A DNA stretch of 64,000 bases from Streptomyces sp. RPT161. Its GTDB lineage: Bacteria > Actinomycetota > Actinomycetes > Streptomycetales > Streptomycetaceae. The notes below the pieces were generated by a model that was not told the origin of the DNA, searched no databases, and saw only the letters and a list, made by a program, of their open reading frames with translations. A program made the translations under genes and the position numbers. The stretch covers positions 1 through 64,000 of the forward strand of contig NZ_JAPZVN010000019.1 of the NCBI RefSeq assembly GCF_027533845.1. The letters are read 5' to 3'. Shown piece after piece: positions 57,343-64,000 of the stretch (the first letter of the stretch is position 1; the number at the start of each line of letters is the position of its first letter).

Positions 57343-57762
57343 CTAATCGGCCGTTGACCGCGAACTGGGCGCCTCGACGCAGTCGTCGTACTGTGCCAGC
57401 CCGTAACCCAACGACCAGTCGATCGACTCGTTCTCGGTCACGGTGACGAACATGTTCCGCGGCTCGGTTCCCGCGTACTCCTCGGCGAGTTCGGCGATCC
57501 GCCGGTACAGCGCCCGCTTCTGCGCGGGCGTGCGGCCCGAGCGCATCGTGATCGCGACGTACACGATGCCCTCGTCGCGGGGCACCCCGAGGTAATCGTC
57601 GTAGCGAAGCGTGCTGTTGGTGCCGTCATGGCCGACCAGGATCTGGAAACGGTCGTCCGGTGGAAAACCGATCGTCTCGACCAGGGCCTCGTGTACGGCG
57701 CGGCCGAGTGCGTCGAGCCGATCGCCGTCGGCTCCCAACACGTCGATACGAACCAATGGCAT
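57343..57762 (-). CDS. tautomerase family protein
   Basis: A 139-residue member of the 4-oxalocrotonate tautomerase superfamily. Pro1-starting MPLVRIDVLG follows the initiator, with later RTPAQKRALYRRIAELAEEYAG and ENMFVTVTENESIDWSLG-like text of the cis-CaaD/MSAD-like group. The N-terminal proline would act as general base in keto-enol conversion or dehalogenation. It follows the P450 pair after a 132-bp gap holding an operator-like palindrome, so it may be separately regulated. Confidence 0.85.
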   Translation of the reverse strand: MPLVRIDVLGADGDRLDALGRAVHEALVETIGFPPDDRFQILVGHDGTNSTLRYDDYLGVPRDEGIVYVAITMRSGRTPAQKRALYRRIAELAEEYAGTEPRNMFVTVTENESIDWSLGYGLAQYDDCVEAPSSRSTAD

Positions 57763-57813
57763 GTCAGCGGTTTCCTCTCAGAACGACGCCGGGCGCTCCC
57801 AGGGGCATGATCG

Positions 57814-57829
57814 TACATACTAGTAGGTA
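57814..57829. promoter_or_regulatory. TetR-type operator candidate upstream of tautomerase
   Basis: TACATACTAGTAGGTA matches its own reverse complement in 14 of 16 positions around a central ACTAGT. No TetR gene is adjacent in the window. Confidence 0.5.
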
Positions 57830-57894
57830 CAGACGTCGAGGACTCCATGCGCACCGTGGCATACGTGCCTCACCCCCGGGGCCAGGCCGGGCGG

Positions 57895-59109
57895 CTACCA
57901 GTCGACCGGCAGGAGCAGTGGTGACTTGCTGGGGGATTCGTCGTCCCAGGTGGGGAGTTGGCCTTCGGCGATGCGTAGGTTCGGGAATCGGTCCAGCAAC
58001 GCGCCGAGTCCTACGACGAGTTCGGTGCGGGCAAGGTGGGAGCCAATGCAGTTGTGCGGGCCACGGCCGAAGACGATGTGGGGGTTGTCCGCCCGGCACA
58101 GGTCGAGTCGGTCCGCGTCGGGGAACACGCTCTCGTCGCGGTTGGCGGCGGCGAGTACGGGCAGGACGGCGTCCCCCGCGTGGATGGTGCGACCGTGCAA
58201 CACGATGTCCTCCACTGCCTGGAGGACGACTACGCCGTTCATCACCGGTACGTAGCGCAGGAGTTCCTCGACCGCTCCGGGCATCAGGCCGCGGTCGTCA
58301 CGCAGTCGGGCGTACTGGGCGGGTTCGGTGAGCAGGGCCAGAACCGCGTTGCCCAGGAACATGGTGCTGGTGCGGTATCCCGCGATGAGCATGGAGAGCC
58401 CGAAGTTCAGCGCGCTCTCCTCGTCGAGGGTGCAGCGTGCGCAGTCACGAACGAGTTCGGTGAGCATGTCGTCCGCCGGCTCGTGCCGCTTGCGGTCCAG
58501 CAGCGTGTGGATGTACTCGCGCAGCAGGCGGGTGACTTCGCGGCCCTCGTCCAGGGTGACCAGTGCGCCGAGGGCGGCGTCCGCCATGGGCAGGAAGTAC
58601 TCGCTGTCCTCGTACGGGATGCCCACCAGCTCGCACATCACCATCAGCGGGAACGGTTCGAGGAACCCCGCGACCAGGTCGCCGGGCCGGCCGCGCTCGG
58701 CGAACTCGTCCAGCAGACGGTCGGCGCAGCGCTGGACGCGGGGCAGTCGGCGCCGGATGGCACGCACGCTGAACGGTTCGGCCAGTGCCCTGCGCAGTGC
58801 GGCGTGCCGTGGGCCGTTCAGTTCCATCATGGTGATCAGACCCGGCTCGTCGTCGGCGACGGCCTGCCCCGCGCTGGGCGGCCAGTCGTTGATGGTCGGC
58901 CTGACCAGCCGGGGATCCGCGATGAGATCGCGTACGTCGTCGTAGCGGGTGACGTACCAGGCGGTGGCACCGATCGGCAGCCGTACCCTGGCCAGTGGGC
59001 ATTCCCTGCGCAGTCGCGGGTATTCCGTGGGCGGCCCCATGGTGCCGGGCGGTGGGATGGGCATGTCGATGTCGGGTACTGGTGGTGCCGCCTGTGGTGT
59101 GCCGCTCAC
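57895..59109 (-). CDS. cytochrome P450 (first)
   Basis: A 404-residue soluble bacterial P450. The heme thiolate is Cys354 in FGRGPHNCIGSHLAR. The ExxR pair is Glu282/Arg285. The I-helix has AGYRTS at residues 243-248: the conserved Thr247 is present, but the acidic residue that usually precedes it is Arg. The DRLDLCR segment replaces the common DRFDPDR. GTG 59109 follows GGGAGG by 7 bases. It is paralogous to the P450 31 bp upstream, and both are in the A-T-R NRPS operon. Confidence 0.92.
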   Translation of the reverse strand: MSGTPQAAPPVPDIDMPIPPPGTMGPPTEYPRLRRECPLARVRLPIGATAWYVTRYDDVRDLIADPRLVRPTINDWPPSAGQAVADDEPGLITMMELNGPRHAALRRALAEPFSVRAIRRRLPRVQRCADRLLDEFAERGRPGDLVAGFLEPFPLMVMCELVGIPYEDSEYFLPMADAALGALVTLDEGREVTRLLREYIHTLLDRKRHEPADDMLTELVRDCARCTLDEESALNFGLSMLIAGYRTSTMFLGNAVLALLTEPAQYARLRDDRGLMPGAVEELLRYVPVMNGVVVLQAVEDIVLHGRTIHAGDAVLPVLAAANRDESVFPDADRLDLCRADNPHIVFGRGPHNCIGSHLARTELVVGLGALLDRFPNLRIAEGQLPTWDDESPSKSPLLLPVDW

Positions 59110-59139
59110 GGGTGGTCCTCCCTAGCTCGTCGGCGGCCG

Positions 59140-60351
59140 TCACCAGCTGACCGGCAGTGTCAGTGGTGACTTCGTCAGGGACTGGTCGTCCCAGGTGGGT
59201 GCGTCGGCCAGGCGCAGCCGCGGGAAGCGGTCGAACAACGCCTCAAGCCCCACGGTGAGTTCGGCGCGCGCCAGATGGGAACCGAGGCAGTAGTGGACTC
59301 CCCGTCCGAAGGCGAGGTGGTTGTTTGCGGTCCGGCACAGGTCGAGCCGGTCGGCGTCGGGGAACACGCTCTCGTCGCGGTTGGCGGCGGCCAGTACCGG
59401 CAGCAGGGCTTCGCCCTTACGGATCGTCTGCCCGTGCACCTCAAGGTCCTCGGTGGCGAGCAGGATGACGACGCCGTTCATCACCGGCATGTAGCGCAGC
59501 AGTTCCTCGACCGTGTCGGGCATGAGGTGCCGGGCGTCGCGCAGTCTGGTGTACCGGTCGGGCCGTCGCAGCAGTGTGTGCACCGAGTTGCCCAGGAAGA
59601 TGCCGCTGATGCCGAATCCCACGGTGAGCATGGAGAGCCCGAACACGAGGACGTCCTCATCGGTCAACTCCTCGGCGTCGCACTGGCGGATGAGCTGGGT
59701 CAGTACATCGTCGCCGGGCGATCGCCGTTTGCGCGCGATCAGTTCCGCCGTGTACTCGCGCAGCAGATCGGTGACCCGGCGGCTCTCCGCCGCGTTCACC
59801 ATCCCGCTGAACCCGTCGTCCAGTACGGGCAGAAACCGGTCGCGTTCCTCATAGGGGATGCCCACCAGGTCGCACATCGCCAGCAGTGGGAACGGCTGGG
59901 TGAATCCGGCGACCAGGTCACCGGGGCTTCCGCCGTCCTGGAAGTCGGCCAACAGCCCTTCGGCAAGCTCCCGCAGCCGCGGCACGCGGTCCCGGATGGC
60001 CCTGGCGCTGAACGCCGGGCCGACGGCCCTGCGCAGTGCGGCGTGCCGTGGACCGTCCAGTTCGGCCATCGTGGTCAGCGTGGGGCCCTGGTCGGCGGGT
60101 TCGTCGGGGCGGGTCGGCCATTCGTTGATGGTGGGTCTGATCAGCCGGGGGTCGGCGATTAGTTCGCGCACGTCGTCGTAGCGGGTGACGTACCAGGCGG
60201 TGGCGCCAAGCGGCATGCCGACCCTGGCCAGCGGGCAGTCGGCACGCAGCCTGGCGTACTCCTCGGGTGGGCCCATGGTGCCCGGCGGCGGGAGCGGGAA
60301 GTCCAGCACCTCGGGGTCGCGGTCGGGCGCTTGGGGTGGCGGTGCGGTCAT
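59140..60351 (-). CDS. cytochrome P450 (second) lacking the I-helix threonine
   Basis: A 403-residue P450, heme Cys355 in FGRGVHYCLGSHLAR, ExxR at Glu283/Arg286. The I-helix stretch aligned with AGYRTS of the first P450 reads VGFGIS (residues 244-249): Thr is replaced by Ile and the acid by Gly, and the usual Ala by Val. Such enzymes often perform reactions other than simple hydroxylation, for example C-C or C-O coupling. ATG 60351 is preceded by GGAAGG. It lies 41 bp downstream of the NRPS gene. Confidence 0.92.
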   Translation of the reverse strand: MTAPPPQAPDRDPEVLDFPLPPPGTMGPPEEYARLRADCPLARVGMPLGATAWYVTRYDDVRELIADPRLIRPTINEWPTRPDEPADQGPTLTTMAELDGPRHAALRRAVGPAFSARAIRDRVPRLRELAEGLLADFQDGGSPGDLVAGFTQPFPLLAMCDLVGIPYEERDRFLPVLDDGFSGMVNAAESRRVTDLLREYTAELIARKRRSPGDDVLTQLIRQCDAEELTDEDVLVFGLSMLTVGFGISGIFLGNSVHTLLRRPDRYTRLRDARHLMPDTVEELLRYMPVMNGVVILLATEDLEVHGQTIRKGEALLPVLAAANRDESVFPDADRLDLCRTANNHLAFGRGVHYCLGSHLARAELTVGLEALFDRFPRLRLADAPTWDDQSLTKSPLTLPVSW

Positions 60352-60392
60352 TGCTCGGTGGCCTTCCGGGTTGTCTTCCTGGGGAAGTGCCG

Positions 60393-63300
60393 CTATTTCG
60401 TGGGGCGTTCGATGTAGCCGGTCGCGTAGAAGTACTCCAGGTAGCGGTCCAGCAGGTCCGCGTCGACCGGCGGGCACGGCAGGTCGCCGACCGCGCGCTC
60501 GACGTTGGTGCGTCCCAGGGTCGGGAAGGTGCCTTCGAAGTACATCTCCTTGACGGACATGTCCGCCTTGTGGCTGCGGTCCACGCACAGCGACACGAAA
60601 GGCGCTGTGGGGCTGGTGGGATTGCCTGCGACGTGCCGGACCAGCTCGTCGACCCATTCCCGGTACGGGAGTTGACGGATCTGGTGGCCCGCGGCGCGCA
60701 TTCGGTCGAGCATGGCGTGCAGGGTCGCCGGGTGGGGGTTGGTGAGGTGGTACGTCAGGTTGGTCGCGGGCCGCTCGGTGGCGATGCGGACGACGGCTTC
60801 GGCGAGGTAGTCGGCGGGTACGAAGTCCAACGGCAGGGGGATGTCGGGGGCGAGGCCGGTCTCGGCGATGGTCTTGAACAGTGAGCAGATGGCGGTTTCG
60901 GTGTTGCAGGCACCGGTGTAGCGGTCACCGGTGATCTCGTACGGGCGGTAGACAGCCACCGGCAGGCCCTGCCGTGCTGCCTCCTGAAGTGACTGTTCCG
61001 CCACCCACTTGCTCTCGGCGTAGCCCATGGTGAGCCGGTCGGCGTGGTCCAGCGGCAGGTCCTCCGGCACCTGGCGTACGCCAGCGGTGCCGAAGCCCGC
61101 CACCACCGCGATGGTGGACAGGAAGTGCACGGGCACACCGCGTTCACCCGCCAGCCGCACCAGTTGTTTGGTGGCATCCACATTGGCCCGGCGCAACGCG
61201 TCATAGGGATAGAGGAAGTTGACCTGTGCCGCGGCGTGCACCACGAGATCGAGGAGGTCGGCGAGTTCGTCGGCATGGCCGGTCGACAGGCCCAGGCCTT
61301 CTTCGACGAGGTCGGCGGGGAAGCAGTCAAGCCGGTCGGCCGCTGGTGGGGCGAGGCCGTAGCGGGCCAGGTTGGCCGTCACGCGGTGCTCGGCGTGCGT
61401 ACGGTCCCGGCTGCGCACCGGGCAGTGGATCCGGGCGCCGGTGCCGCGCAGCAGTCGGTCGAGGAGGAAGGCGCCTACGAATCCGGAAGCGCCGGTGAGC
61501 AGTACGTTCCGGGGCCGCCGCCAGTCGGGGGCGGGCTGCCGGGGCGTCGTCAGTGTGAAGCCGAGCCGGGCTTCGGCCCGGTAGTCCACCGGGGACGACG
61601 CGTGCGGTGGCTTGCTGTCCTGGACGGCGGTGACGGCGGCGGTGTAGCCGCGCAGGGTGGGGTACCGGAGCAGGCTGTGCACCAGTGTGCTGCCGTGCCG
61701 CGCGTCGATGTCCAGTGCGGTGAGGGTGCGGTTGACGACCTCGGCGGCCAGTAGTGAGTCACCGCCCAGGTCGAAGAAGTCGTCGTCGTCGCCGGGTTGG
61801 GCGCGCAGCACCGTCTGCCACACGTCGGCCAGCGGGCCGTGCGTGCTCCCGTCCTCGCTCGGCACCGGCCGGTCGGCCGCCTGCCCCACCATCTCAAGCA
61901 GTCGGCGCCGGTCGACCTTGCCCGCCGCGGTGACCGGGAACCGCGCGACCTCCACCAGCCGCGCCGGGACCGCCGCCAGCGGCAGCCATGCGGCCAGTTC
62001 CTCGCGCACCCGGTCGAGGGGCACCGCCTCTCCCCGGTGGGCCGCGGTGACGTAGCCGGTCAGGACGTCGCCGTCCAGTTCCACGACAGCCTCGCCGACC
62101 GCGTCGTCCGCCCGTAGCCGCGCCTCGATCTCGTCCAGCTCGATGCGGTGGCCGCGCAGCTTGATCTGGCGGTCCGCCCGGCCGCGGTACTCCAGCTCGC
62201 CGTCCTCGCGCCAGACGGCGCGGTCGCCGGTGCGGTACAGCAGGGTGCCGGGGGCGACCGGGCGCTCCACGAAGCGGGCGGCGGTCAGCTCCGGGTCACC
62301 GAGGTAGCCCAGGGCCAGGCCGTCGCCACCGACGAACAGTTCGCCCTCCTCCTCCGCTCGTGCGGGGGTGCCGTCCTCCCGTAGGACATGGCAGACGCAG
62401 TGTTCCAGGGGGCGGCCGATCGGCACGGTCTGCTGCCCGCCGGGCAGGTCGCGCACCGCGTAGGCGGTGGACACCACACTGTTCTCGGTCGGGCCGTAGA
62501 AGTTGACGAGGGTGGTGTCCGGACAGGCTGCCAGCACGGCGCGGGTCAGGTCCGGGTCCATCGCCTCGCCGCCCGCGGAGGCGAACCGCAGGGTCCGCAG
62601 CGCCTGCGGCCGGGTGCGCGCGACATGGTGGAATACGCCCGTCGTCAGATAGGCGATCGCCACCCGTTCCGCGACCAGCCGCTCCTCCAGCGCGGCGGGC
62701 GAGAGCAGTTCCTCCCGGTCGACCAGGACGAGGCAGCCGCCGCCCAGCAGGGCCGACCAGATCTCGATGGTGGAGGCGTCCGAGGACAGTCCGTATGCGT
62801 GCAGCACCCGATCGCCCGGGCGCGGTCGCTGTGCGACCAGGTCCGACATGGCCAACCGCACGACGCCCCGGTGGGGAACGGCCACCGGTTTGGGCCGGCC
62901 GGTCGATCCGGAGGTGAACATCACGTAGGCGCAGTCCGTCGGGGTGGTCCGCGGCCGCGGTGCCTCGGCGGGGCTGGCGGGCGCCGGGGCGGTCAGGTCG
63001 ACATGGGTCCGTACCCGACGGAGGCGGCAGGCACTGCCGGGCAGCGTCACGACGGTCTGCGCCCCGGACTCGTCGGCCATCGCCTGGAGGCGGTGGGGCG
63101 GCGTGGTGTCCTCCAGGGGGACGTAGGCGGCGCCCGTCTTGAGGATGCCCACGAACGCGATCAGCGCTTCCAGTGACCGGTTGCCGAAGACGCCGACCGC
63201 GTCGCCGTGCCGTACTCCGGCGCCGAACAGCCGGGCGGCCAACTGGTCGGAACGTGCCTGGAGTTCGCCGTAGGTCAGGGCGCGGCCGTGGTGCACGCCG

Positions 63301-63416
63301 ACGTGCGCACGCGGACGGAGTGCCGCCTGCGCGTCGAACAGCTCATGAAGACAGCTGTCCCGCGCGCTGTCGACATTCCGGGCCGCAGCGGATCCGGTCG
63401 CGCCACCGAGCGTCAT
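60393..63416 (-). CDS. single-module A-T-R NRPS-like carboxylate reductase
   Basis: A 1007-residue protein with three domains. Adenylation (about 25-510): FTSGSTGRPK (A3), YGPTE (307), YRTGD (394), RGRADRQIKLRGHRIE (411) and Lys500. Thiolation (about 525-600): LGGDSL with the phosphopantetheine Ser554. Thioester reductase (about 635-1007): NADPH site TGASGFVG (641-648) and Tyr799-x-x-x-Lys803 (YAESK). It would activate an amino acid, load it on the carrier and release it as aldehyde (or alcohol). By-eye specificity residues D213, A214, I217, T258, A279, A281, F306, V314, V315, K500 point to a hydrophobic alpha-amino acid. There is no condensation domain. Confidence 0.93.
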   Translation of the reverse strand: MTLGGATGSAAARNVDSARDSCLHELFDAQAALRPRAHVGVHHGRALTYGELQARSDQLAARLFGAGVRHGDAVGVFGNRSLEALIAFVGILKTGAAYVPLEDTTPPHRLQAMADESGAQTVVTLPGSACRLRRVRTHVDLTAPAPASPAEAPRPRTTPTDCAYVMFTSGSTGRPKPVAVPHRGVVRLAMSDLVAQRPRPGDRVLHAYGLSSDASTIEIWSALLGGGCLVLVDREELLSPAALEERLVAERVAIAYLTTGVFHHVARTRPQALRTLRFASAGGEAMDPDLTRAVLAACPDTTLVNFYGPTENSVVSTAYAVRDLPGGQQTVPIGRPLEHCVCHVLREDGTPARAEEEGELFVGGDGLALGYLGDPELTAARFVERPVAPGTLLYRTGDRAVWREDGELEYRGRADRQIKLRGHRIELDEIEARLRADDAVGEAVVELDGDVLTGYVTAAHRGEAVPLDRVREELAAWLPLAAVPARLVEVARFPVTAAGKVDRRRLLEMVGQAADRPVPSEDGSTHGPLADVWQTVLRAQPGDDDDFFDLGGDSLLAAEVVNRTLTALDIDARHGSTLVHSLLRYPTLRGYTAAVTAVQDSKPPHASSPVDYRAEARLGFTLTTPRQPAPDWRRPRNVLLTGASGFVGAFLLDRLLRGTGARIHCPVRSRDRTHAEHRVTANLARYGLAPPAADRLDCFPADLVEEGLGLSTGHADELADLLDLVVHAAAQVNFLYPYDALRRANVDATKQLVRLAGERGVPVHFLSTIAVVAGFGTAGVRQVPEDLPLDHADRLTMGYAESKWVAEQSLQEAARQGLPVAVYRPYEITGDRYTGACNTETAICSLFKTIAETGLAPDIPLPLDFVPADYLAEAVVRIATERPATNLTYHLTNPHPATLHAMLDRMRAAGHQIRQLPYREWVDELVRHVAGNPTSPTAPFVSLCVDRSHKADMSVKEMYFEGTFPTLGRTNVERAVGDLPCPPVDADLLDRYLEYFYATGYIERPTK

Positions 63417-63442
63417 GGAGACATCCCTTCGCCCCTCGCCGG

Positions 63443-63895
63443 CTAACTGAATTCCGCGGCGAAGGCGGAGAAGTCGGCAGTGCGCCAGCGCTGCGGACGC
63501 ATATGGAAAAGGACGTCCTCACTGAGCTGACGCTCATTGGCCTTCAGATACGCCGAGGCGGCTTTCGGATCCAGATAGCGGTGTGCCAGTGCCTCGTGTT
63601 GGGCGGCCGGCACCGGATCGTCAACGGCCACGACCGGGCCTTCCACGCTGACGTACTGGTAGGGGGCGGTTTCCTTCTGTGCGCACAGGCTGAAACGCCC
63701 TGACGCACGTACCAGTTGGGCCTTCACCGATTCCCGTGCGGTCTGCACCAGTACTTCACCACCGGGTTCGTAGGCGTACCAGACCGGAACCAGCAGCGGC
63801 GCGCTCGCACCGCGCGGATCGTGCACTCCCAGCATCCCCACGTGCACGTCGGCGAGGAACTTCTCCCGGTTTTCGACGGACATCGCCAAATCCAC
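63443..63895 (-). CDS. pyridoxamine-5'-phosphate-oxidase-like (PPOX) family protein
   Basis: A 150-residue split-barrel flavoprotein-type protein: EKFLADVHVGMLGVHDPRGASAPLLVPVWYAYEPGGEVLVQT and RFSLCAQKETAPYQYVSVEGPV are typical of the F420/FMN-binding PPOX class. The start is probably GTG 63895 (AAAGG upstream); the frame opens at 63976. It lies 26 bp upstream of the A-T-R gene and in the same operon, so it may oxidise or reduce the released product or its dimer. Confidence 0.82.
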   Translation of the reverse strand: MDLAMSVENREKFLADVHVGMLGVHDPRGASAPLLVPVWYAYEPGGEVLVQTARESVKAQLVRASGRFSLCAQKETAPYQYVSVEGPVVAVDDPVPAAQHEALAHRYLDPKAASAYLKANERQLSEDVLFHMRPQRWRTADFSAFAAEFS

Positions 63896-64000
63896 TGTCG
63901 ATATGCCTTTCAGTGCGGGTGGGCTGATGAAAAGGGAGCGTGACAAGCCGAGAGTCGCATGTTCGGCGCCCGACACAACGCCATCACCACCAACATGCCG

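Follow-up and report, generated by a model that had tools for sequence, protein, structure and literature searches.

A predicted guanipiperazine-type piperazine-alkaloid cluster with twin P450s in Streptomyces sp. RPT161

The locus lies in the final part of the window, the 64,000-nucleotide stretch of Streptomyces sp. RPT161 analysed in this work (contig C51; host genome 7.7 Mb). Five intact genes, all on the minus strand and all inside the range given in the first-pass annotation, encode a PPOX-fold protein of ~146 aa (63443-63883), a single-module NRPS-like adenylation-thiolation-reductase (A-T-R) enzyme of 1007 aa (60393-63416), two cytochromes P450, here P450 A (59140-60351) and P450 B (57895-59109), and a Tautomerase_2 family protein (57343-57762; PF14552, 1.1e-23). 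Intergenic gaps are 26 bp (PPOX to A-T-R), 42 bp (A-T-R to P450 A), 30 bp (P450 A to P450 B) and 132 bp (P450 B to tautomerase). The order PPOX, A-T-R, P450 was seen again in dozens of actinomycete genomes, and the arrangement is therefore far from chance. The start of the PPOX gene is favoured to be the ATG at 63883, because in the closest relative, from S. rubrisoli, the equivalent Met is closely preceded by an in-frame stop; a GTG at 63895 is a possible alternative. The start of P450 A was placed at 60351 from homologues and sequence, with the stop at 59140. The start listed for this open reading frame, at 60657, would make it run into the A-T-R gene and is probably incorrect. Sequence past position 64000, where the first-pass annotation had suggested looking for further genes, holds divergent neighbours only (a PAP2-like ORF, a DeoR regulator, a PfkB kinase and a fructose-type PTS protein), so the end of the cluster lies inside the window. 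The operon of DeoR regulator, PfkB kinase and fructose-type PTS protein beside the cluster occupies L089:9729-13604, which is 65729-69604 of the window contig, and this pfkB has no close copy in either of the two congeners that were examined.

The gene set corresponds to that of the gup cluster of Streptomyces chrestomyceticus and the rms cluster of S. rimosus (Shi et al. 2021, Chem Sci 12:2925, as reported in PMC8498797 and PMC9045324), and the first-pass view that the combination did not match a described cluster was thus mistaken. In these clusters two L-tyrosines are turned into a dihydropyrazine by the A-T-R enzyme, GupA reduces it and the P450s couple the aryl rings; GupA of S. chrestomyceticus is summarised in the review as an F420H2-dependent FDOR-B enzyme that converts this dihydropyrazine to a piperazine (PMC8498797). 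Guanipiperazines A and B have been isolated from S. rimosus ATCC 10970, and the locus of that strain to which they were matched spans 6,254 bp and encodes a non-canonical NRPS, two P450s and a PPOX-like reductase that depends on F420H2 (PMC9045324). The S. rimosus genome used for comparison here (L040) belongs to a different strain of that subspecies, in which the same four genes span ~6.4 kb. A homologous locus of Streptomonospora nanhaiensis (L066; 4,421,103-4,444,144) lies inside a published guanipiperazine A/B-like region (PMC12842786).

Domain profile searches of the A-T-R enzyme returned AMP-binding (E = 2e-72), PP-binding (2.6e-7) and NAD_binding_4 (1.7e-55), the reductase domain also matching the thioester reductase model TIGR01746 (5.8e-82); no condensation domain was found by these searches, as the first-pass annotation had proposed. 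The adenylation motifs, the GGDS phosphopantetheine site and the TGxxGxxG and YxxxK motifs of the reductase domain are retained. Identity to the S. rimosus L040 enzyme is 62% overall and 62%, 49% and 68% for the A, T and R domains, respectively. Nine specificity positions were taken from an alignment of 69 A-T-R sequences and a GrsA segment (verified against PDB 1AMU), and the resulting code, DAIYSGFVV, is the same in the window enzyme, in L040 of S. rimosus and in a further 52 homologues. L-tyrosine, in place of the unspecified hydrophobic amino acid suggested at first pass, is the best prediction for the substrate, because the nine-residue code is identical to that of the enzyme from the S. 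rimosus guanipiperazine locus. Two Pseudonocardiaceae homologues (L029:9770-12970 and L047:9461-13096), neither with a neighbouring PPOX or P450 gene, carry the code DGHHSGFVV and may use another amino acid; the code is therefore not simply frozen across the family.

The gene for the PPOX-fold protein lies next to that for the A-T-R enzyme, and the protein shares 63% identity with its PPOX counterpart in the S. rimosus guanipiperazine locus. It matched Pfam Pyridox_ox_2 (5.9e-8) and TIGR03618 (Rv1155_F420; 9.4e-17, under the curated cut-off), and a PDB search with it gave chance matches only. Capacity for F420 biosynthesis was tested with TIGR03551, PF01933 being dropped as too unspecific (it also has matches in E. 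coli). The cofH/fbiC gene of the host scored 542.8 bits against a cut-off of 374.1, so F420 should be available to the PPOX enzyme. These observations agree with the F420-type partner anticipated at first pass and point to a GupA-type, FDOR-B-like enzyme, a predicted F420H2-dependent dihydropyrazine reductase.

A scan of 84,980 species for A-T-R homologues returned ~70 close homologues in actinomycetes; most have a PPOX gene immediately before the A-T-R gene, and P450 genes frequently follow it, gene content being determined from tblastn matches. The A-T-R enzyme of the window belongs to a clade of 18 members that is separate from the S. rimosus (gup) clade (SH-aLRT 100; 100/99 for bootstrap/SH-aLRT in a smaller tree built with more care), with members in Streptantibioticus, Streptomyces, Kitasatospora, Nocardia and Pseudonocardiales. 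A pair of A-type and B-type P450s is present in 13/18 of these loci, two B-like copies in 2/18, one P450 in 2/18 and none in 1/18, the relatives lacking one or both being L010, L012 and L015. Across the wider set of homologues, PPOX and A-T-R pairs with no adjacent co-directional P450 were seen at L010, L021, L031, L056, L057 and L059; a bare piperazine is the expected product of such pairs, and could be that of L010. In four members of the window clade, from Pseudonocardiales and Nocardia, the gene that directly follows A-T-R encodes a class I methyltransferase (L014:13007-13885, L015:13049-14317, L018:5404-6222 and L074:13032-13952), which suggests a methylated product at those loci. In a small sub-clade the A-T-R gene is closely followed by a convergent gene on the other strand, for a P450 with kinship to the gup P450-2 group (L035:10541-13555, L036:13463-14803 and L045:13299-14660). 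Plasmid spread was rejected as a general rule, since just one homologue, of 42% identity, was on a plasmid.

Both window P450s have intact FGxGxHxCxG and ExxR motifs. In P450 trees they group with gup P450-1, with gup P450-2 and other P450s outside, and P450-1 and the window twins form one exclusive group with support of 100 when 17 other P450s from homologous loci serve as outgroup. The twins are 41-44% identical to gup P450-1, to which they are a sister clade and not one-to-one orthologues, and only ~31% identical to gup P450-2. The 31 gup-side loci combine P450-1 with the very different P450-2; no gup P450-2 was found at the window locus, and the best match elsewhere in the same genome is 34% identical. 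Because the window clade has only relatives of P450-1, in an exclusive group with it, the twins look like the outcome of a tandem duplication within this clade, P450 B being the less derived copy. The I-helix is nearly fixed within each group, reading AGYKT in gup P450-1 and SGYED in gup P450-2, VGFGI in 12/13 members of the P450 A group (VGFGIS in the window) and AGYRT in P450 B (AGYRTS in the window). Canonical monooxygenase P450s carry an acid-Thr pair at that site; in P450 A both the acid and the Thr are replaced, and in P450 B the acid is replaced by Arg and the Thr is kept. The altered I-helices would suit phenol-coupling enzymes better than hydroxylases, and, together with homology, they underlie the putative coupling role of the pair; coupling or decoration by the P450s had also been proposed at first pass. 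A literature search for the acid/alcohol residues of the I-helix in coupling P450s yielded no text that decides the matter, and one for the roles of the individual gup P450s or for an account of the window clade gave nothing usable. One of the gup P450s reportedly forms a strained intramolecular C-O bond and the other carries out an intermolecular coupling.

On the genes, domains, motifs, codes, phylogeny and gene content described above, the cluster probably encodes a four-gene gup-type pathway for a piperazine alkaloid, the likely product being a dityrosine piperazine that is cross-linked but distinct from guanipiperazine. By analogy with characterised relatives, the A-T-R enzyme would activate L-tyrosine, hold it as a thioester and release L-tyrosinal by NADPH-dependent reduction, and two tyrosinals would condense to a dihydropyrazine, in keeping with the amino aldehyde release and self-condensation foreseen in the first-pass annotation. 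The F420H2-dependent PPOX enzyme would then reduce the dihydropyrazine to 2,5-bis(4-hydroxybenzyl)piperazine, the phenols of which the twin P450s would cross-link, either intramolecularly or to a partner. The product should differ from guanipiperazine, since two P450-1 paralogues stand in place of gup P450-2; substrate and product may also be shifted relative to the producer, because the A-T-R and PPOX enzymes are only ~62% identical to those of the producer. A more specific proposal, offered tentatively and with somewhat less than even odds, is a dityrosine piperazine with two cross-links, the bacterial equivalent of a herquline-like cyclophane, for which each twin would catalyse one phenol coupling with neither the gup-type P450 nor its coupling partner.

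Three other readings of the locus were weighed. That the cluster makes guanipiperazine itself, one of the twins standing in for gup P450-2, would fit the shared core enzymes and A-domain code and the presence of two P450s in both systems, but is unlikely given that both twins are paralogues of P450-1, that gup P450-2 has a different I-helix from either of them, and that the window A-T-R enzyme belongs to a separate clade. A fifth pathway enzyme, with the tautomerase (and perhaps other neighbours) acting on the aldehyde or imine, is a slightly weaker candidate still: the gene is on the same strand just downstream of P450 B and is kept beside the cluster in S. rubrisoli, yet it is missing from all other homologous clusters, and a congener that lacks an A-T-R gene (G001) has a 76% identical tautomerase in a different gene neighbourhood. 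The tautomerase, which the first-pass annotation had placed within the cluster, is thus probably a neighbour and not a pathway gene.

Least likely is a pyrazine pathway, in which the PPOX enzyme (or air) would oxidise the dihydropyrazine to an aromatic pyrazine for decoration by the P450s. Dihydropyrazines aromatise readily, and there are oxidases among PPOX-fold enzymes. Against this stand the identity of the PPOX protein to the guanipiperazine-locus enzyme, a reductase giving a piperazine, the single Tyr-type code shared by the partner A-T-R enzymes and the F420 biosynthesis gene of the host. The PPOX step is accordingly taken as probably a reduction to the piperazine, not the oxidation to a pyrazine put forward at first pass, because GupA, a characterised relative, acts on the dihydropyrazine as an F420H2-dependent reductase (PMC8498797). 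Taken as a whole, the first-pass interpretation kept its A-T-R enzyme, aldehyde, dihydropyrazine and P450s and lost its undescribed gene combination, pyrazine oxidation and unspecified substrate; the distinct branch with a duplicated P450 had been missed.

The preferred gup-type pathway has a core that is already known from guanipiperazine and involves no new kind of chemistry. The locus is an uncharacterised sister branch of that pathway, its core predictable and its last step not. Possibly new is the branch itself, which is widespread, lacks the second tailoring P450 and carries duplicated and diverged copies of the first. The branch is in effect a natural experiment on change in P450 coupling chemistry. 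Its four small genes can be expressed together, and the division of labour between the twins is directly testable, the acid and alcohol residues being altered differently in each and fixed across species.

Fungal pathways provide functional parallels. In herquline biosynthesis (HqlA, an A-T-R enzyme; HqlB, a reductase; HqlC, a P450), two tyrosines give a piperazine, as proposed for the window, and P450 cross-linking afterwards yields a strained cyclophane (PMC12790562); other fungal pathways that pair an A-T-R enzyme with an NmrA reductase likewise reduce two amino acids and join them to a piperazine, a likeness of function (PMC13047030). The fungal systems use an NADPH-dependent SDR or NmrA reductase, whereas the window has a predicted F420-dependent PPOX enzyme. 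Aureusimine synthetase AusA is a reductive-release NRPS giving pyrazinones. Its A domain is related to that of the window enzyme, but AusA is dimodular (A-T-C-A-T-R), and the window A-T-R enzyme scores 556 against a cut-off of 2500 for the corresponding model (NF047350). The closest system is gup/rms, which shares with the window the PPOX-fold F420 reductase (63% identity), the A-T-R enzyme with an identical code (62% identity), two downstream P450s, gene order and a size of ~6.3 kb, and from which the window differs in lacking gup P450-2, in having two P450-1 paralogues and in the separate clade of its A-T-R enzyme.
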